Source: Prevotella sp. (GTDB lineage: Bacteria > Bacteroidota > Bacteroidia > Bacteroidales > Bacteroidaceae). From it: a stretch of 49,716 nt of DNA. The position numbers and the translations under genes were made by a program. The notes under the pieces are model-generated. The model was given only the letters and a program-made list of their open reading frames with translations, had not been told where the DNA came from and made no database searches. This document shows, in pieces, positions 3,822-40,424 of this stretch. The stretch covers positions 1 to 49,716 of the forward strand of contig JAFZUS010000183.1 in NCBI GenBank assembly GCA_017618275.1, given 5' to 3'. Numbering within the stretch: the first letter of the stretch is position 1; the number at the start of each line of letters is the position of its first letter.

Positions 3822-4361
3822 ATGAAGGGGACTGTGAAGTTTTTGGGAGCGTTGGTCATTGCCTTTGTGGTGATGCTGGCCTTCCGAGGACTGGTCATGA
3901 CGGTCTGTGCCATTGAGGGCGACGGCCTGGCACCTCAGTTTGTGGAAGGTGACCGGGTGGTTGTCAACCGCTGGAGTTACGGACTGCGTACAGGCAAGAA
4001 AGGCAGTCTCTTCGACTATGGCAGAATCTGCCGCCAAGAGGTGAAAAAGGGCGAATTCATCGCGTTTGAAGACTCTTTGGGCCATATACTTATCTGTCAA
4101 TGTACGGGTGTGCCTGGCGATACAGTCTATACGAGGAAGGGACAGGCCCCGAGTGTGGTTCCAGGCCTTTTCAACTGCGACGATCAGGACTACTACTGGG
4201 TGAGGAGTGTCAGCAAGAACAATCCCATTGACAGTCGGCAGTTGGGCTTTATCCCAGAGGAGCGCATCATCGGACGGGCTTGTCTGGTCTTATTCAGTCG
4301 CGACCCTATGGCGCCTTTCTGGAAAGGCTACCGTTCTGACCGTTTGCTTCTGCCGAAATGA
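3822..4361 (+). CDS. signal peptidase I-like protein lacking the catalytic dyad
   Basis: This 179-aa S26-fold protein has one N-terminal membrane segment (about 5-29), a recognisable catalytic-serine region (IEGDGLAPQF, 31-40) and a second box (ICQCTGVPGDTV, 91-102). Aligned with its active neighbour, the nucleophile position is Gly35 and the general-base lysine is Cys92, so both dyad residues are lost. The structural motif NNPIDSRQLGFIPE is kept. The frame is intact, so it is a pseudoenzyme candidate rather than a decayed gene. It sits between lepB and a WbqC-family gene and overlaps the latter by ATGA. It might be a LepB partner or bind exported peptides; that is inference. Confidence 0.82.
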   Translation: MKGTVKFLGALVIAFVVMLAFRGLVMTVCAIEGDGLAPQFVEGDRVVVNRWSYGLRTGKKGSLFDYGRICRQEVKKGEFIAFEDSLGHILICQCTGVPGDTVYTRKGQAPSVVPGLFNCDDQDYYWVRSVSKNNPIDSRQLGFIPEERIIGRACLVLFSRDPMAPFWKGYRSDRLLLPK

Positions 4362-5053
4362 CAACCCTGCTTAGCACGACTTATTTCGGACCCGTACAGT
4401 GGTACCAGAAACTCTATCGCAGCGAGGAGGTGCAGATAGAGGGGTGGGAGAGTTTTCAGAAACAGACCTACCGCAACCGTTGTCTGATTGCTACGACAAA
4501 TGGGGTGCAGGCATTGACGGTACCTGTGGAGCGAAATCATGGGGACAGTCCCCATGATCTTCGCGATGCTGCTATCACGGGGACTGTCCCCATGATTCGT
4601 TCTGTCCGTATCAGTGATCACGGCAACTGGCGCCACCTGCATTGGAATGCCCTGCAGAGTGCGTATGGCGAGAGTCCGTTTTTTGAGTATTACCAAGATG
4701 ATATATACCCTTTCTTTGAGAAGCGTTGGACGTTTTTGCTCGATTTCAACGAGGAGATCCGACAGAAAATCTGCGAACTCATCGATATCCAGCCGAAGGT
4801 CGGCTATACGAAGGATTACGTGCAGAATCACGGGGACAGTCCCCATGATCTTCGCGATGCTGCTATCACGGGGACAGTCCCCATGATTCATGATCTTCGC
4901 GAGGGAATCCGTCCCAAGCACCCGGCTCAAGATCCGGACTTCACGCCTAAACCCTATTACCAGGTGTATCAGCAGAAGCACGGTTTCCTGGCGAACCTCT
5001 CCATCCTCGACTTGCTATTCAACCTGGGGCCGGAGAGTATCTTTTACCTGTAA
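4358..5053 (+). CDS. WbqC-family protein carrying two in-frame palindromic inserts
   Basis: The start (STTYFGPVQWYQKLYRSE) and end (FLANLSILDLLFNLGPES) match the WbqC-like family, named after an O-antigen cluster gene of unknown enzymatic role. The 231-aa protein is longer than expected because two nearly identical 21-residue segments (residues 60-80 and 157-177, NHGDSPHDLR...ITGTVPMI) are inserted. Each is encoded by one 63-bp palindromic element and keeps the frame. Removing both leaves about 189 residues. The start codon overlaps the previous stop. Whether the protein still folds is unknown, but there is no stop or frameshift. Confidence 0.82.
   Translation: MTTLLSTTYFGPVQWYQKLYRSEEVQIEGWESFQKQTYRNRCLIATTNGVQALTVPVERNHGDSPHDLRDAAITGTVPMIRSVRISDHGNWRHLHWNALQSAYGESPFFEYYQDDIYPFFEKRWTFLLDFNEEIRQKICELIDIQPKVGYTKDYVQNHGDSPHDLRDAAITGTVPMIHDLREGIRPKHPAQDPDFTPKPYYQVYQQKHGFLANLSILDLLFNLGPESIFYL
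4535..4597 (+). repeat. 63-bp palindromic element, copy 1 (in frame in wbqC-like gene)
   Basis: The element has two GGGGACWGTCCCC palindromes joined by a 15-nt linker (CTTCGCGATGCTGCT). The left hairpin (ATCATGGGGAC/GTCCCCATGAT) is perfect. It is 21 codons long and in phase. Copies 1 and 2 are 61/63 identical (differences at element positions 6 and 51). It resembles REP/BIME-type or Rickettsia-palindromic-element-type repeats; no transposase is in the window. Confidence 0.88.
4826..4888 (+). repeat. 63-bp palindromic element, copy 2 (in frame in wbqC-like gene)
   Basis: Second direct-orientation copy, 61/63 identical to the first, with both arms reading GGGGACAGTCCCC. It is again exactly 63 bp and in phase. 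The 14 bases after it (CATGATCTTCGCGA, 4889-4902) repeat part of the element, which could be a partial third copy or the target sequence. Confidence 0.88.
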
Positions 5054-32053: not shown

Positions 32054-34611
32054 GGTGAGATATTGTTCAGTTCTCCAATCTTTCCCTCAACGACATCTGT
32101 GGTCATCAGTTGGTAGAAGTCATCAAGGGTGATGTGCGTCTGGGGTGCAAATTTATCTGAGGTCATGTATTCCAAGACGCTGCGATAGAAGGCCCGTCCC
32201 TCGGGATATTCAGATGCCTTTTCGAGGTCAGTCATGCAAACGAGTAATTTCCCTTTTCCGATAGCGAACTCGAAGATGAGGCCGAGTTTATGATTGCGCT
32301 CAATGTTATCAATCACCTGCACGATGGGCCGGTAGTCCTTATTCGTGTTGTCGAGAATCATCGGATGGCTGTTCTTTATGACGGGGAACCACTGCCAGTT
32401 GGTGTGCATCTCCGTAGGGAAACTCTTGAATATCGGATGCTTGGGATCTGTGAGAATGCCTAACGTACCTGGCGAGACGGATTTCTTGTTCCCCTCGCAG
32501 ATGGTCTTGAACATACGGTAGTTCCAATAGTCGGTCTGGAAGAGTCCGCCCACGCAGAGTTTCGATGAGTCTGGCATCAGCAGTACGCTTTTGCCTTTCT
32601 CCAATTGTTGGGCAATCTCTTCCGTCAGTACATTGGTGATGATGACTTTCTTCTGCAGTTTCTTCAGGTGGTCCTTGACGGGATAGACCCATAGGTCGTA
32701 GGTGTTTTGGTATTCTGTGCCGTCGATATTCAATAACAGTTGCAGTTGGGTGGGTTTGTCATATCGGGAGAGGCTGACATTGATCTCTCCAGCCTCAATG
32801 AGCCCCTCACCATCGGGGGTGTCTATCTCTCCTTTTATGTCGGGAGATACTTCCCATGAGAGTTTCTTCCCCTTCAGGCTTTCACCACTGTAATTCGCTA
32901 TCTGAACCTTCGCATGGATACCTTCTTTATTGGTGAAACAGTATTTGTCGGCTATGAGCAGGGGTACCACAGGGGCGCACCACTGGCGCCATTCTCTTTC
33001 CGTGCAGAGGCCTTTTGGATCCATAAAAGCATCAAGGATGCCGACGTATGCACTACCCTGTCCAGGGTAGTCCTGCAGGTCGAGCAGTTGGAAACCAGCC
33101 ATATTCGGGGTGCGGAGATCCATCTCAATATCCTGTTTGTAGAGTTGCAGTGACCAGAGGCCACTGGCTTGGTGAAAGTCTTTTGCCTGATCCAGCATAC
33201 CAGCCTTCTCAAGGCGACTACGAAAGACCTCCATATTATAGGGATAGAGTACACCTGTATATTTCTTTATTTCGTCGTAGTCGGGATAGGTCTGGAACTG
33301 GGCCGTTTCGTGGGAGATGACGGGAATTGCAAATTCCCTCGAACTGCCTTCAGCGAAAGCCAAGGCACATCCTTCCTCGAAGTTCATCGTGGTGTTGGGG
33401 TGGAAGTGGTTGATCATCCCACCGTCAGCCGCATCGGCAAACGAGAAGGAGCCACGGGTATGGGTGTTGTAGTGGCCCCACGCCTCGCCACCAACACGAC
33501 AAGTCGTAAAATAGTCCATGCCTTTCTTCACACCCTGATAACCAAGGTAGTAGTTGCTACCGAAGGTATAGACCTTATCGGGGGCCATCTTCCGGAAATC
33601 CTCGATGAATTCGGCCATTTTGTCAATGCTGCCCCATAGTTCATTACCCAAGGCGAACATCCTGAACGAGGGATGATGACCATACCAGCGCAGGATGTTT
33701 TCTCCCTCCTTATGCAGGAACTGCATCAGCACCGTGTCCTTGTCATTGAAGTCGCCCCAGAAAGGCAGTTCGGGTTGCAGGATGATACCCAGTTCATCGG
33801 CAGCGACAAAGGCGGCCTCTGGCGGACACCAGGAGTGGAAACGCACATGGTTCAGTCCGTAGGCAGCACAGTCACCCAGGTAGTTTCTCCACGATTCCGC
33901 ATCCATCGGCACATGACCTGTCAGTGGCCAGACACACGCATCGTGCTTGCCTCTTAAGAAGATCTTGTGTCCATTGGCATAGAAGTGCTGTCCTTCGATA
34001 TGAAAGTCCTTAAGGTTTGGATGCTCTTCTGCGCGTGATGCGGCAGGAAGACCATTCAACAATTCAATCCTCCCAATGATCCCATTCCAGTTGGTCTGGG
34101 TGTCTTCTGTATAGGCATGGCTGTTGGCGTAGAGTTGCTCAGGTACGCCACTGCCATTATCCACCATGATGGCGAGGTCGTGACGACCTGGGGTGAGCCA
34201 TTGTGAGAGGTCGAACACCTGGGGCGTGGAGATGTCGTTCGACGAACCGACAAAGTTCGCATCGACATAGATTTCCGTAGGTTTTGTACGTTCTAAGAAG
34301 AGATAGACAGGTTGACCTTGCCAGTCGGCAGGAATCTCCACCTGACGCTTGTACCACGCCCTGCCTTTATAAGAAAAGATTCGCGAGAGGTGGGTGGTCT
34401 CGTCTTTCTTCACGAGAGGGTCTCCCTTCTTATTCGTATCCGTCGTACCGGGCAGTTGCACTGTCTCTGTCAGGATATAGTCAGGATGCACCAGTCGTTG
34501 GCGGTCCAGAGCAAACTGCCATGTGCCGCTGAGATCCATCACCAACGTCTGTGCCGTTGAGGTGAAAAGTGATAAGTGAAAAATGAAAAGTATAAGCAGA
34601 AGTCTTCTCAT
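32047..34611 (-). CDS. GH2-family glycoside hydrolase
   Basis: An 854-aa secreted enzyme. The N-terminal jelly-roll sugar-binding domain (about 25-195) begins VMDLSGTWQFALDR and contains GRAWYKRQVEIP. An immunoglobulin-like part and a TIM barrel (about 210-500) follow, with acid/base Glu in ALGNEL and probable nucleophile Glu in VISHETAQF. The C-terminal 300 residues form beta-rich accessory domains. GH2 members include beta-galactosidases, glucuronidases and mannosidases; this sequence is not closely like LacZ and the substrate is open. The signal-peptide core ILFIFHLSLFTS is encoded by a TTTTCAYTTTTCAC-type repeat. An 8-bp tandem repeat lies directly before the ATG. Confidence 0.83.
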   Translation of the reverse strand: MRRLLLILFIFHLSLFTSTAQTLVMDLSGTWQFALDRQRLVHPDYILTETVQLPGTTDTNKKGDPLVKKDETTHLSRIFSYKGRAWYKRQVEIPADWQGQPVYLFLERTKPTEIYVDANFVGSSNDISTPQVFDLSQWLTPGRHDLAIMVDNGSGVPEQLYANSHAYTEDTQTNWNGIIGRIELLNGLPAASRAEEHPNLKDFHIEGQHFYANGHKIFLRGKHDACVWPLTGHVPMDAESWRNYLGDCAAYGLNHVRFHSWCPPEAAFVAADELGIILQPELPFWGDFNDKDTVLMQFLHKEGENILRWYGHHPSFRMFALGNELWGSIDKMAEFIEDFRKMAPDKVYTFGSNYYLGYQGVKKGMDYFTTCRVGGEAWGHYNTHTRGSFSFADAADGGMINHFHPNTTMNFEEGCALAFAEGSSREFAIPVISHETAQFQTYPDYDEIKKYTGVLYPYNMEVFRSRLEKAGMLDQAKDFHQASGLWSLQLYKQDIEMDLRTPNMAGFQLLDLQDYPGQGSAYVGILDAFMDPKGLCTEREWRQWCAPVVPLLIADKYCFTNKEGIHAKVQIANYSGESLKGKKLSWEVSPDIKGEIDTPDGEGLIEAGEINVSLSRYDKPTQLQLLLNIDGTEYQNTYDLWVYPVKDHLKKLQKKVIITNVLTEEIAQQLEKGKSVLLMPDSSKLCVGGLFQTDYWNYRMFKTICEGNKKSVSPGTLGILTDPKHPIFKSFPTEMHTNWQWFPVIKNSHPMILDNTNKDYRPIVQVIDNIERNHKLGLIFEFAIGKGKLLVCMTDLEKASEYPEGRAFYRSVLEYMTSDKFAPQTHITLDDFYQLMTTDVVEGKIGELNNISPY

Positions 34612-34616
34612 TCAAC

Positions 34617-34656
34617 TTTTTTACCTTTTTACCCTTTTACTTTTTTACTTTTTTAC
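34617..34656 (-). repeat. 8-bp tandem repeat (TTTTTTAC x5) upstream of the GH2 start
   Basis: Units TTTTTTAC, CTTTTTAC, CCTTTTAC, TTTTTTAC, TTTTTTAC end 5 bp upstream of the GH2 ATG (read GTAAAAAA on the coding strand). The gap to the upstream S46 gene contains nothing else. Confidence 0.8.
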
Positions 34657-34665
34657 CTTTCCCCT

Positions 34666-36786
34666 TTATTTCGCATTGATCTCCTTTAGCAGACGATCTG
34701 CCTTGCCCCACGACTCCATCATATAGAGCACATAGCGGATGTCCACGCCAATACAACGGGCCAACTGAGAATCGAAGAAGATGTCAGATGAGAGCGAGTC
34801 CCAGTTGCCGTCAAAGGCCAGACCTATCAGTTCGCCCTTGCCATTGAACATCGGTGAACCGCTGTTACCACCCGTGATGTCGTTGTTTGACAGGAAACAG
34901 AGGTGCAGTTTGCCTGTCCCCTTGTCAGTGTATTTGCCGAAGTCCTTCTTCGAGAGCAGTTCTCTCATGATAGGCTCAGCCTCGTACTCAATGTTCTCGT
35001 GGGCCTTGTCCATCTTCTCCACGATACTCTCGGCAGTGGTATAATAACCAGATGGCTTGCCGCCCAGCAGGTATTCACCCACCTGACCATACGAGAGGCG
35101 CATGGTCATATTGGCATCTGAGTAGTTGGGCATATCCTCCTCCATACGCAGTTTGGCGGCACAGAGGTAGCGCTCCAACACGTCGATGCTGTCGTAGGTG
35201 GCCATTAGGTCGGAACGGAGTTCGAGCAACGTCGAATAGACACACTCACCGTACATGACACCAGGGTCACGTTTATAACTGTTCTTGTTGATGTAGATCT
35301 TCTTGTCGCTCTTCATCAGTTTCGACTTCTTATAGAGGTGGTTCGCATATTTCTGGTAGTCGCCCTTGAAGTCGCGGTCTATGATGTTGTAGAAGGCAGG
35401 CAGATACTTCGGGTCCACCTGTTCACGGTAGTTCTTCATCAGGGCAGCAATGACCTCACAGTCCAAATTGTAATCCCACTCGTCGCTGTTGTTCTTGAAC
35501 TCCACGTAGTAACTCTTGGGCTTGCCCTCCTTGCCGTTGATGATGGCGTTGTTCTGTACGCGCATGGCGCGACGGGTCATTTCGTCACTACGTCCGAAAG
35601 TCTCGCTGAAGAACGTCATTGTCCGCATGGCATCAAAGCGCTGTTTGTAGAGACGCTCCAGTATGTCGAAGTCGAGTTTATCCTTCAGATAACCTGTAGA
35701 GTCCTGCCACTGACGGATCTTCGCCTCGAAGGCGGCTTTCTGCTGAATCAGACCGATGGAATCGATACATTTGTTCATGCCGATGGAGTTTTTCCAGTAG
35801 TTGGAACTGCTGGCATACTTCGAGTCGTACTTGATGCGCACAGCCTCGTCGGCACGCATGTGGCGGATCATGATGTTCTGCTTAATCTCGCGCGTCTTGT
35901 ACATTGGCTCGTTCTGGGCATCACGACGCTCCCTGATGCCATAACTCGACAGATAACGGCTTGTGCTTCCCGGGAAACCGATAGTCATAGAGAACGATCC
36001 TGGCTGATAGCCTTGCAGAGACACCTGTGCCCACTTCTTCGGGTGATAGGGCACATTATCCTTAGAATACTTCGCAGGACCTCCTGTCTTGGGGTCTACA
36101 TAGATACGGAACACGCTGAAGTCGCAGGTCTGACGGGGCCACATCCAGTTGTCTGTCTCGCCACCGAACTTACCCATTGATTTGGGCAGGGCAAACACCA
36201 AGCGCACATCTTCGTAGTCGCGGTAGGTGGTGAGATAGTACTTGTTGCCCTCATAGTAAGGCTTCAACTCTGCACGGAGTGTGGAGTCCTGTTCGTATAC
36301 CTGTTTCTGGAAGACATTCTCCAAAGAGTCGATGAAATGGCCTCTTTTGTCCTCAGTGAGTCCGCTGAGGCCCAACGAGTCCAGTTGTTCTGTCACGTCC
36401 TTCTGTTCCACCATGAAACTCACGAAGAGATTCTTGTTGGGCAGTTCTTCCTCATACGAGTTCGACACAAAACCGTTGAGCATATAGTCGTGTTCCACCG
36501 TAGAGTGGCTGCGGATAGACTCGAAACCGCAGTGGTGATTGGTAAATACGAGTCCATCGGGTGACACCACCACACCCGAGCAGTAGCCTCCGAAGAGCAC
36601 CACACAGTTCTTCACGGCATCATCGCCTTCATACAGTGCCCCGTACGGCAATTCGTAGTTTTCCTGCTTCATCGTTTCATAGACGGCATTCGGCAAGTTA
36701 TACAACGTCCACATGCCTTCATCGGCTTTTATGCCATTCGGCAGAAAGGTAAGAAGGATTAGAATTGAAATAATAATTTTTCTCAT
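34666..36786 (-). CDS. S46-family dipeptidyl-peptidase, DPP7-type
   Basis: A 706-aa exported serine exopeptidase that removes N-terminal dipeptides in the periplasm, a key step in peptide feeding by Bacteroidales. The signal peptide ends near IKADEG. The triad is His85 (FTNHHCG), Asp222 (WPRQTCDFSVFR) and Ser642 (TGGNSGSP). The residue 18 positions after the serine is Gly660 (AFDGNW). In Porphyromonas DPP11 this position is the Arg that selects acidic P1 residues, while DPP7 has Gly, so DPP7-like preference for hydrophobic P1 residues is predicted. Length matches the family. Confidence 0.9.
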   Translation of the reverse strand: MRKIIISILILLTFLPNGIKADEGMWTLYNLPNAVYETMKQENYELPYGALYEGDDAVKNCVVLFGGYCSGVVVSPDGLVFTNHHCGFESIRSHSTVEHDYMLNGFVSNSYEEELPNKNLFVSFMVEQKDVTEQLDSLGLSGLTEDKRGHFIDSLENVFQKQVYEQDSTLRAELKPYYEGNKYYLTTYRDYEDVRLVFALPKSMGKFGGETDNWMWPRQTCDFSVFRIYVDPKTGGPAKYSKDNVPYHPKKWAQVSLQGYQPGSFSMTIGFPGSTSRYLSSYGIRERRDAQNEPMYKTREIKQNIMIRHMRADEAVRIKYDSKYASSSNYWKNSIGMNKCIDSIGLIQQKAAFEAKIRQWQDSTGYLKDKLDFDILERLYKQRFDAMRTMTFFSETFGRSDEMTRRAMRVQNNAIINGKEGKPKSYYVEFKNNSDEWDYNLDCEVIAALMKNYREQVDPKYLPAFYNIIDRDFKGDYQKYANHLYKKSKLMKSDKKIYINKNSYKRDPGVMYGECVYSTLLELRSDLMATYDSIDVLERYLCAAKLRMEEDMPNYSDANMTMRLSYGQVGEYLLGGKPSGYYTTAESIVEKMDKAHENIEYEAEPIMRELLSKKDFGKYTDKGTGKLHLCFLSNNDITGGNSGSPMFNGKGELIGLAFDGNWDSLSSDIFFDSQLARCIGVDIRYVLYMMESWGKADRLLKEINAK

Positions 36787-37670: not shown

Positions 37671-39125
37671 CTTCTTTCTGAATCTCCGTCCTATCACTGG
37701 TAGGCTGCTGAGTGGGAGATCCTGCTTGATGATTCTATATACGAATCCCAGGATGAAGACGTTGTTGATGATGAGCAATACCCATTTGGGCCATTCCGTA
37801 TTGATGTCAAACCACTCCATCATACCGAATAAAGCCATAGCGACAATGAAGTAAATGATGATATCCTTCATCGGATAGGGAATAGGGTTCTTCTTTTGAC
37901 CTACGAAGTAACTTAGCGTCATTGAGGTAAAATAACCGGCAAGTCCTCCCCAGGCACAGGCCCAATAGCCGATCTTGGGGATATAGATGATGTTAATGGC
38001 GATGAGTACGATGCAGCCAGCCAACGAGAACCACGCCCCATAGATGGTCTTGTCGATGAGTTTGTACCAGAACGAGAGGTTGAAATAGATACCCATAAAA
38101 ATCTCAGCCATCATTACGATAGGTACTACACCCATTCCAGCACGATACTTTTCACCTATAATATATTGCAACACAGGCATCCAGCCCATCACACAGAGGA
38201 AGGCCAACAGCGTGAAGATGATGAAGTACTTCATCGCTGAGGCGTAGTATTCTGTCTTGTCTGCATCTTTGTTCTTGGCAAACACGATGGGTTCATAGGC
38301 ATAACGGAAAGCCTGCGTAATCATCGCCATAATCATTGCTATCTTGACACATGAGCCATAGTCACCTAACAGAATATCGGCCTCGCCCCTATCAGGGTAG
38401 ATTAGCGGGAAGAGGATCTTATCTGCCACTTGATTCAGTATACCGGCTATTCCCAATATCAGGATGGGCCAGGAGTAACTGAACATCCTGTGCAATAGCA
38501 TTCCGTCGAAATGCCACTGAATCTTAAAGAGGTCTGGTATAAAGAACAAGGTGATAAAACCCGTACAGAGCAGGTTGATGAAGAATACATAAAAGACCGA
38601 TGTCTTGCCCAACAATACGAAATAGATGAGATTTAAGCAGATGTTCAGTATGATAAAGAGCATCTTCAGCGAAGCAAAACGGATGGGCCTCTTCTGGAAT
38701 CGCAGATAACTGAAGGGAATGGCCTGTAGCGCATCAAGGGCTACCACTACTGCCATCATCAACAGATAGTCGGGATGTTCCGTATACCCCAACGCATGAC
38801 TGATGGGGCCGATAAATCCGAAGATACACAACAGGAACACCAGTGTCAATGACCCTACCACTGCCATCACTGTCGAGAAGACAGTATCAGGTTTGCTCTT
38901 CTCGTCGTTGGCAAAGCGGAACAGGGTGGTCTCCATGCCGAAAGTCAGCAATACGAGAATGAGTGCCGTATAGGCATAGACATTGGTGCTGATGCCATAG
39001 TCGCCGGTTTCGTGCGGCATATAGTAAGTGTAGAGGGGTACCAGCAGATAATTCAAGAATCTGCCTATGATACTCGAAAGCCCATATATTGCCGTATCTT
39101 TTGCCAATGATTTCAGATTAGCCAT
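37653..39125 (-). CDS. polysaccharide biosynthesis protein (Wzx-like flippase, MOP superfamily)
   Basis: A 490-aa inner-membrane protein with about 12-14 helices. The start LAKDTAIYGLSSIIGRFLNYLLVPLYT is typical of Wzx/MurJ-like exporters that flip lipid-linked sugar units. No glycosyltransferases are adjacent, so its glycan is unknown. The C-terminal KKPGNPG derives from a 9-bp repeat. The start codon is directly preceded by an 8-bp tandem repeat. Confidence 0.87.
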   Translation of the reverse strand: MANLKSLAKDTAIYGLSSIIGRFLNYLLVPLYTYYMPHETGDYGISTNVYAYTALILVLLTFGMETTLFRFANDEKSKPDTVFSTVMAVVGSLTLVFLLCIFGFIGPISHALGYTEHPDYLLMMAVVVALDALQAIPFSYLRFQKRPIRFASLKMLFIILNICLNLIYFVLLGKTSVFYVFFINLLCTGFITLFFIPDLFKIQWHFDGMLLHRMFSYSWPILILGIAGILNQVADKILFPLIYPDRGEADILLGDYGSCVKIAMIMAMITQAFRYAYEPIVFAKNKDADKTEYYASAMKYFIIFTLLAFLCVMGWMPVLQYIIGEKYRAGMGVVPIVMMAEIFMGIYFNLSFWYKLIDKTIYGAWFSLAGCIVLIAINIIYIPKIGYWACAWGGLAGYFTSMTLSYFVGQKKNPIPYPMKDIIIYFIVAMALFGMMEWFDINTEWPKWVLLIINNVFILGFVYRIIKQDLPLSSLPVIGRRFRKKPGNPG

Positions 39126-39189
39126 TTTTTTACCCTTTTACCTTTTTACTTTTTTACCTTTTTACTTTTTTACCCTTTTACTTTTTTAC
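39126..39189 (-). repeat. 8-bp tandem repeat (TTTTTTAC-type x8) upstream of the flippase start
   Basis: Eight 8-bp units (TTTTTTAC with CCTTTTAC and CTTTTTAC variants) fill the whole 66-bp gap between the SpmAB-like gene and the flippase ATG. The motif is the same as at 34617-34656. On the coding strand it is a run of GTAAAAAG-like units ending at the ATG. Confidence 0.85.
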
Positions 39190-39191
39190 CC

Positions 39192-40424
39192 TTACCCAAA
39201 GAATAAGTATGCGATAGCGATTGCGGCGATGATGCCGGCGAAGTCGGCGAGGAGCCCACAGGTCACGGCGTGGCGGGTCTTCACAATACCCACACTGCCG
39301 AAGTAGACGGCAAGAATATAGAAGGTTGTATCTGTCGAACCCTGGAAGATACAACTCAGGCGTCCCACGAACGAGTCAGCCCCGTAGGTTGTCATAGCGT
39401 CCACCATCATACCCCGTGCTCCACTGCCGCTCAACGGCTTCATCAGGGCTGTCGGCAAGGCTCCCACGAAGTCGGTATTGCCGCCACAGGCTTCCACACC
39501 CCATTTGATACCGTCGATGAGCATATCCATTGCCCCAGAGGCACGGAAAACGCCGATTCCAACGAGAATAGCCACCAGATAGGGAATGATCCTCACTGCC
39601 GTCTGGAAACCCTCCTTCGCACCCTCGATGAAAGCGTCGTAGACATTTACCTTCTTCCGGATACCTGCGAGGATAAAGGCGATGATAATCGTCATCAACA
39701 GGATATTGGCTGCCGATGTACTCACCTTATTCATTAATATAGAGTCCAACTGTCCGAAGCCCCAGATGATGCCTGCCACCACGAGGGCTGCACCTCCTAA
39801 GGTCAACAGGATGGTGCGGTTCAACAGGTTGATCTTCTGAAAGAGACTCGTGATGATGATACCTGCCAGCGTCGAGAAAAATGTGGCCAACAGGATTGGT
39901 ATGAAGATATCCGTAGGCTGTGCGGCTCCCATCTGGGCACGATAGACCAATATAGATATAGGTATCAGCGTCAGACCTGAGGTGTTCAGCACAAGGAACA
40001 TAATCATCGGGTTCGAGGCGGTATCCTTCTTCGTGTTCAGTTCCTGCATCTGTTCCATAGCCTTTAGGCCGAGGGGTGTGGCTGCATTGTCGAGCCCCAG
40101 CATATTCGCAGCAATGTTCATAAAGATGGAGCCCGTAACTGGGTGACCCTTGGGTATTTCCGGGAATAGTTTCGTAAAGATGGGACTCAGCAGACGAGCC
40201 AGCACATTCACCACACCGCCCTTCTCGCCAATCTTCATAATACCGAGCCAGAGCGACAGAACACCTGTCAGACCCAAGGAAATCTCAAACGCGGTCTTCG
40301 ACGATGAAAAGGTCGAATCCATCATGGCTGGGAACACTTCGAAGTCTCCCAGAAACACCAGTTTCACCAGTGCAATCAAAAATGCGACGATAAAAAACGC
40401 CACCCAAATCCAATTCAGTACCAT
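39192..40424 (-). CDS. nucleoside-recognition domain membrane protein (SpmA-SpmB-like fusion)
   Basis: A 410-aa inner-membrane protein with about 8-10 helices. The first half resembles spore maturation protein A (GSIFMNIAANMLGLDNAATPLG) and the second half SpmB (PLSGSGARGMMVDAM, SCIFQGSTDTTFYILAVYFG), fused as usual in Bacteroidetes, which do not sporulate. A role in transport is assumed from the 'nucleoside recognition/Gate' domain; the substrate is unknown. The ATG at 40424 is chosen because a promoter box lies at 40433-40440; an in-frame ATG at 40463 lies upstream of it. Confidence 0.87.
   Translation of the reverse strand: MVLNWIWVAFFIVAFLIALVKLVFLGDFEVFPAMMDSTFSSSKTAFEISLGLTGVLSLWLGIMKIGEKGGVVNVLARLLSPIFTKLFPEIPKGHPVTGSIFMNIAANMLGLDNAATPLGLKAMEQMQELNTKKDTASNPMIMFLVLNTSGLTLIPISILVYRAQMGAAQPTDIFIPILLATFFSTLAGIIITSLFQKINLLNRTILLTLGGAALVVAGIIWGFGQLDSILMNKVSTSAANILLMTIIIAFILAGIRKKVNVYDAFIEGAKEGFQTAVRIIPYLVAILVGIGVFRASGAMDMLIDGIKWGVEACGGNTDFVGALPTALMKPLSGSGARGMMVDAMTTYGADSFVGRLSCIFQGSTDTTFYILAVYFGSVGIVKTRHAVTCGLLADFAGIIAAIAIAYLFFG

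Follow-up and report, generated by a model that had tools for sequence, protein, structure and literature searches.

REP sequences are named for being extragenic. The window analysed here, a stretch of 49,716 nucleotides that constitutes contig C64 of a 3.6-Mb Prevotella sp. draft genome in 213 contigs, holds a WbqC-family gene in which two nearly identical palindromic segments lie in frame, and it raises the question of what kind of element this is, what moves it, and how it came to reside within coding sequence. We propose, with a probability of roughly 0.8, that the element is a REPIN, probably mobilized by a RAYT, whose surviving copies in this group of rumen Prevotella lie almost only in frame in protein-coding genes.

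Architecture of the repeated element

The host gene (4358..5053, forward strand, 231 codons) matches the Pfam family WbqC (PF08889, 118 bits, E 5e-34) and has 80 named orthologues in our set. Its two inserts, copy 1 at 4535..4598 (site 1) and copy 2 at 4826..4889 (site 2), both on the forward strand, form a direct repeat of 64 nt in which 62 of 64 positions are identical (97%). Each is read in frame as the peptide NHGDSPHDLRDAAITGTVPMI and consists of two GGGGACWGTCCCC palindromes in inverted orientation, separated by a linker: the arms of copy 1 are GGGGACAGTCCCC (4541..4553) and GGGGACTGTCCCC (4579..4591), and GGGGACAGTCCCC forms both arms of copy 2 (4832..4844 and 4870..4882). The first-pass annotation had described a two-copy palindromic repeat in frame in a WbqC-family gene, each copy made up of two palindromes with a linker, and our analysis bears this out, with coordinates correct to about one base. 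It had also found the opposite strand open through both copies, as is indeed the case (ORF 4328..4981, reverse strand); this antisense frame has no Pfam match, and we read it as a by-product of near-palindromic elements and not as a gene. Between positions 4300 and 5100, Rfam contains no known RNA family at gathering score.

The palindrome is not a product of chance, since the 13-mer GGGGACWGTCCCC occurs 15 times in the 3.6-Mb genome against 0 for a reversed control, and since both copies outperform 200 of 200 shuffles when folded. As single-stranded DNA, each copy folds into one long hairpin, of −24.2 kcal/mol for copy 1 and −16.6 kcal/mol for copy 2, and none of the 200 shuffles made of each was as good (z −8.8 and −4.3, respectively). 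Comparison of 21 related 64-mers, seven from this genome and 14 from relatives, with rows that share ancestry, showed that five pairs of the long hairpin have changed on both sides, in 11 such cells; the shuffle mean is 3.4, and 0 of 500 shuffles reach 11. One of the five covariation measures, further pair types, did not exceed shuffles, and the same structure slid by two columns comes near the correct register (0.045 vs 0.064). Two local hairpins were considered as the folding unit and rejected, as they show less covariation (two pairs and three cells, vs five and 11 for the long hairpin). In diverged copies, for example those at locus L041 and on contig C210, the outer pairing is kept and the inner palindromes are lost. 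The architecture is that of a REPIN, two inverted REPs that form one hairpin, in keeping with the REP/BIME-like organization that had been suggested from the window alone. Neither strand of the 64-mer contains GTAG, GTGG or CGTC, and the hairpin foot thus has no GTAG/CGTC tag.

The 13-bp palindrome contains no stop codon in any of the six frames and the canonical linker has one open frame on each strand, so that a copy that lands in the right register, in whichever orientation, contributes a peptide without stops.

Insertion history of the WbqC loops

Each copy had been credited with adding exactly 21 codons and had been taken for a recent arrival, and both claims stand in part. The inserted segment does comprise 21 codons; the net gain is smaller, as the WbqC of one relative (L089) has 200 codons vs 231 in the window, the difference being made up of 15 at site 1 and 16 at site 2. 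At site 1 the GTVPMI of the element occupies the position of GTSPLI in relatives. With respect to age, a motif check found the site-1 copy in 0 of the 80 named orthologues, and 5 of 80 have a segment at site 2, so that none carries both, an outcome that agrees with the first-pass annotation. Four relatives (L038, L039, L042 and L089) have a single palindrome at site 2. The element there is complete but diverged in L041; in genome G374 it is complete, is accompanied by an additional palindrome and lies in a frame that is not open; and L046 perhaps has a trace of it (AATCA-AATGATT). The WbqC protein of genome G324, which is listed under the same genus as the window, is the same as that of Prevotella sp. 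RGIG7923 (L038). The site-2 copy, common to relatives in whole or shortened form, is therefore old, and only the site-1 copy looks recent. Because the site-1 linker is found, among the copies of this genome, only at site 2, comparison of linkers suggests that site 2 is probably the likeliest source of the site-1 copy. A 14-nt direct repeat, CATGATCTTCGCGA, is present both in the linker of copy 2 and in the host flank, and loss of the sequence between these two repeats would yield the single-palindrome form of site 2.

In an AlphaFold2 model of WbqC built from 49 sequences (mean pLDDT 86.8), the inserts occupy predicted loops: blocks at the inserts have pLDDT values of 51 and 68 (residues 61–80) and of 75, 48 and 75 (residues 151–180), vs 84–98 for all other blocks except one of 74 at residues 31–40. 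In orthologues the corresponding loops are of variable length and frequently contain inserts of another kind, made of tandem repeats; the SufS-like and MenE-like loops do likewise. The insertion sites are permissive. Among such inserts are in-frame short tandem repeats (e.g. TCACCTC, CGTACCT) unrelated to the palindrome, in the two WbqC loops of L044, L056, L072, L100 and L110. The WbqC loops of L049, L065 and L101 contain, in frame, a spacer flanked by short tandem repeats that form inverted arms, perhaps representing other hairpin families. In L097 one loop has a GC-rich stretch, GGCTACGGGTAGGCGCG, and the other loop the reverse complement of it, which may be another case of copying between the two. 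Hairpins as a general source of long WbqC loops were considered and rejected, since few of them contain a stem (p 0.02 or less vs codon shuffles): among long loops at site 1, 2 of 16, and among long stretches at site 2, for which the pattern took in much flank, 3 of 17; with shorter site-2 stretches, 7 of 64 were positive.

Distribution of the element and its association with RAYT genes

Elsewhere in the same genome, a search recommended by the first-pass annotation disclosed further copies, for a total of nine full copies in seven genes, 9/9 in frame: two each on C64 and C180 and one each on C129, C210, C206, C94 and C177. The C177 copy is a weak match (E 7e-4), and those on C94 and C177 have other linkers. 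Near-identical copies are thus dispersed within one genome, as for a REPIN, in low number, and the predicted resemblance to Rickettsia palindromic elements, namely in-frame insertion into genes, extends well beyond wbqC. The Pfam matches of the host genes are WbqC, a GT4 glycosyltransferase, a pyridine nucleotide-disulphide oxidoreductase (which we take to be dihydrolipoyl dehydrogenase), MntP, an MFS transporter, a class-V aminotransferase (presumably SufS-like) and an AMP-binding enzyme (presumably MenE-like). Two of the seven, WbqC and the GT gene, hold two copies each, against a random expectation of 0.012 same-gene pairs with an assumed 3000 genes. Single palindromes occur in frame in a radical-SAM gene on C119, which we take to be HemW-like, between genes on C12, and in an ambiguous position on C106.

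Across the genus, 398 genomes (this one included) were searched for two exact palindromes with any 14–44 nt between them, a pattern that avoids linker bias. Twenty genomes carry 39 exact elements (5/176 among the more complete genomes), and the reversed control matched one genome. A long ORF runs through all except two of the 39; of these two, the G374 element is within wbqC in a frame that is not open, and the G221 element is intergenic. Grouping by host flank gave 25 groups and, once the G374 wbqC copy had been merged by hand with site 2 of the window, 24 sites, of which 23 are in frame and one is intergenic; the mainly extragenic location of REPINs is thus not found here. The G374 copy (C18) had been a candidate for a second, non-wbqC place of the wbqC linker, until it proved to be wbqC site 2. 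Registers among the 37 in-frame copies are unevenly used: GGG GAC (peptide GD[SC]P) accounts for 26, and two others for 11. Exact elements are hosted by genes with Pfam matches to PrmA, CbiJ-CbiD, RsmF, UvrA, carbon-nitrogen hydrolase, MenC, peptidase U32, sulfatase, CobQ, nucleotidyl transferase, 4Fe-4S protein, Mfd-like helicase and class-V aminotransferase, and diverged copies add MurF-like, ClpA-like, helicase, 5-FTHF cyclo-ligase and decarboxylase genes. The hosts at L154, L167 and L174 have no Pfam match at 1e-8, and an RsmD-like host, at which two species use different registers for one site, has a weak NCBIfam match only (28 bits vs a cut-off of 117.5).

Beyond the genus, a search of 399 genomes of the family found seven positive genomes, all in genus g216, which together have 23 hairpins of the same arms, most with an AT-rich linker; 32 further genomes of the own genus in this search had no such hairpins. 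Fifteen of the g216 hairpins were read. Four are inside ORFs of 253–607 aa, of which three match a Pfam family; the other 11, two ambiguous cases included, are outside long ORFs. Coding and non-coding sites number 23 and 1 in the genus vs 4 and 11 in g216, with location judged from ORFs and not from gene calls (Fisher p 8e-6; 2e-4 with the two ambiguous cases moved). A class-level survey, in which 0 of 394 genomes besides this one were positive, had suggested strict restriction to the genus, and this is ruled out by the seven g216 genomes with the same arms and other linkers. Phages and plasmids were considered as carriers and gave no match to the 64-nt query.

The genome of the window encodes one Y1 protein (C206:37272-37631, in a frame of 292 aa), which matches PF01797 over the cut-off. 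A Y1 domain in a frame of 250–310 aa is present in 16 of 23 element-bearing genomes vs 1 of 24 others (Fisher p 2e-6), the latter being hand-chosen and unmatched for phylogeny; the remaining genomes have shorter Y1 frames or none, and four element-bearing drafts that are 80–89% complete (G324, G327, G396 and G375) show no Y1 match. The 25 RAYTs that were aligned share a HuH motif (NHVH or NHFH) and RY[IV]HQNP. NF047646 (REP-associated tyrosine transposase) is the only match among three NCBIfam models tested, at 61–65 bits and thus below its cut-off of 80 bits; these proteins are Y1/HuH transposases related to REP-associated tyrosine transposases.

RAYT genes not only accompany the element, an association that the first-pass annotation had proposed for scrutiny, some of them are also found next to units of like kind. 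An arm unit, GGGGAC[AT]G, lies within 150 nt of 10 of the 25 located RAYT frames (0.009 expected per locus), and in four genomes, that of the window, G374, G050 and G095, such units are present on both sides; the other 15 frames have none within 150 nt. The RAYT of the window genome is flanked by GGGGACAGG and ACTGTCCCC, 25 and 26 nt away, one per side, which share the arm core (GGGGACAGG) only, and not the linker or outer bases, with the copies in the window. Units beside the G025 and G050 RAYTs have the ATCA-GGGGACAG arm, which is of the window's type. A stricter test, which required the complete palindrome and allowed no more than one mismatch, had given 0 of 16 loci and the impression that no repeats adjoin this RAYT; that result came about because the pattern was too strict, and the 9-nt arm finds units on both sides. 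A 29-nt inverted repeat of other sequence is located upstream of the same gene (G000:C206, L029 2151-2219).

Two relatives extend the connection. In G025 an element is found within ~10 nt of the RAYT stop codon; the diverged copy beside the RAYT of G025 is outside any long gene. The G025 RAYT gene itself (G025:C32, L253:2180-3037, reverse strand) contains a related hairpin segment in frame upstream of the HuH motif, which is absent from the 73% identical homologue in G374. In G031 (C157, L259) the RAYT is surrounded by a sister REPIN family (CAGGGGACAGGTACCTG), with 32 units at ~18 places in the genome; six of 16 places examined are inside ORFs of 387–698 aa, five with a Pfam match (e.g. NAD-dependent epimerase), and the others are outside genes or ambiguous.

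Origin of the coding location and relation to known systems

How strong an excess of coding sites these numbers represent depends on the coding density and on the tolerance that is assumed. For coding densities of 90% and 94%, respectively, 23 of 24 sites would have p 0.009 and 0.08 if all in-frame insertions were tolerated, and 8e-5 and 0.004 if half were. It is conceivable that an ordinary REPIN-RAYT system inserts at random and that the coding bias is no more than the outcome of a high gene density and of selection that removes copies breaking the frame. The coding share of the window is indeed ~0.94 by a greedy ORF count, at which density full tolerance gives p 0.08 for 23 of 24, but a tolerance of 20% predicts a coding share of only 0.27–0.51 at densities of 0.85–0.94, and the same-arm hairpins of g216, retrieved by the same search, are mostly outside long ORFs. 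We regard random insertion as a possible but doubtful account of the bias. We put forward with similar reserve the proposal that coding sequence is the niche to which this REPIN lineage has adapted, the hairpin moving between genes as a mobile element compatible with protein and giving essential enzymes new loops. It is prompted by the stop-free palindrome and by the linker open on both strands, and would include, in one relative, insertion in the RAYT that may itself move the element. Adaptation of the element to being translated is possible.

Origins that dispense with a transposase are harder to sustain. In disordered loops, replication slippage and template switching could generate and propagate hairpins, as with tandem-repeat inserts, and unrelated inserts of that type in the WbqC, SufS-like and MenE-like loops of relatives, extra palindrome units adjoining several copies (C180, C129, C177 and G374) and the two genes with two copies each would all fit. 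Within-gene slippage cannot explain the spread of the element, however, because 64-nt sequences that are nearly the same, and whose linkers are alike, are found in genes with no relation to one another, both within one genome and across several species; the RAYT association argues in the same direction, and the arm units flanking RAYT frames add weight to the REPIN-RAYT reading and remove it from this alternative, which we consider unlikely. The prevalence of the GD[SC]P register might instead point to selection of the inserted peptide for a function, such as that of a shared tag. This is most improbable, given the 11 of 37 copies in other registers, the change of register between two species at the RsmD-like site, the functionally unrelated hosts, and the relatives in which the same genes have no insert or carry other repeats. 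Finally, the draft state of the genome and the out-of-frame copy in one relative could be taken to indicate an assembly artefact, an idea to which we give almost no credence, as assemblies from water buffalo, red deer, rumen and sheep carry the palindrome in frame at the same wbqC site.

According to the REPIN-RAYT reading that we favor, two inverted short palindromes form, when the DNA is single-stranded, a single long hairpin with slight bulges, which the RAYT-class tyrosine (Y1/HuH) transposase of the lineage probably mobilizes. Copies arriving in flexible, length-variable loops would survive purifying selection and become inherited, and may then lengthen, shorten or spread locally via hairpin- or slippage-mediated copying and deletion. 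For WbqC, we infer that an older insertion in loop 2 was later copied to loop 1. Tolerance rather than benefit would be the reason that copies survive.

We compare the element with the REPINs and RAYTs of Bertels and Rainey 2011 (PMC3116915). REPINs are described there as extragenic, with 14 of 1,067 16-mers overlapping genes, and as present in hundreds of copies, whereas the Prevotella element lies in frame in genes and has nine copies. Both have an inverted palindrome pair in one hairpin, dispersed near-identical copies, and a RAYT, which in Prevotella has arm units nearby in 10 of 25 frames, and we file the element as a variant that works like a REPIN and not as a standard member. Rickettsia palindromic elements are ~150 bp long and, in their first report, were located in ORFs in nearly half of all cases (as related in PMC10969869). 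They resemble the present element in that they are inserted in frame into unrelated genes and add peptide (PMC10969869 and PMC3733652), and differ from it in that it is 64 nt long, is genic at 23 of 24 sites and has a RAYT in its lineage. Compared by description, it works like these elements, sharing in-frame insertion and not the length of ~150 bp, and is not a member of their family.

Coding REPs and behavior like that of the Rickettsia elements are already known to science (PMC3733652). Intragenic GTAG/CGTC REPs in several groups form dimers that code for 20–30 residues, sometimes twice in one gene, and uvrA is among the hosts there as it is here; unlike the element of the window, most REPs in that study are intergenic, and the GTAG, GTGG and CGTC motifs are those missing from the Prevotella 64-mer. 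The word 'Prevotella' is absent from the text of the same paper. For TnpA-REP proteins, PMC6006769 describes a subclass 2.4, abundant in Cyanobacteria and Bacteroidetes, with REPs in frame within tnpA-REP, and a subclass 2.6 with atypical REPs. These subclasses include RAYTs of Bacteroidetes, and the REP in frame inside tnpA-REP in 2.4 recalls the G025 gene, although the insert lies between HuH and Y in subclass 2.4, as portrayed there, and before HuH in G025.

We found no report of such elements in Prevotella in the open-licence literature. What is new is that the copies are almost exclusively in coding sequence, that another genus differs in this respect, and that a RAYT is linked to the element in the same clade. 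A lineage in which almost all copies are in-frame protein insertions reverses the extragenic rule of REPs, outside Rickettsia and in gut bacteria from a genus with cultured members, and it makes testable the question of whether coding palindromes persist by mere tolerance or because the element evolved to be translatable. The copies also constitute a natural set of ~20-residue insertions in housekeeping enzymes, which should be useful for learning which loops accept new peptide.

Repeats of other kinds were encountered in the same genome. Tandem repeats of 8 nt, ACTTTTTT/ACCTTTTT in type, form two arrays in the window, at 34599..34688 and 39116..39205, and ORFs on contig C12 (G000:C12, L035, near 4180-4450) translate into HGDWNICA / TDVPVPVCR peptides in repeated form, which may be a further insert derived from a palindrome.
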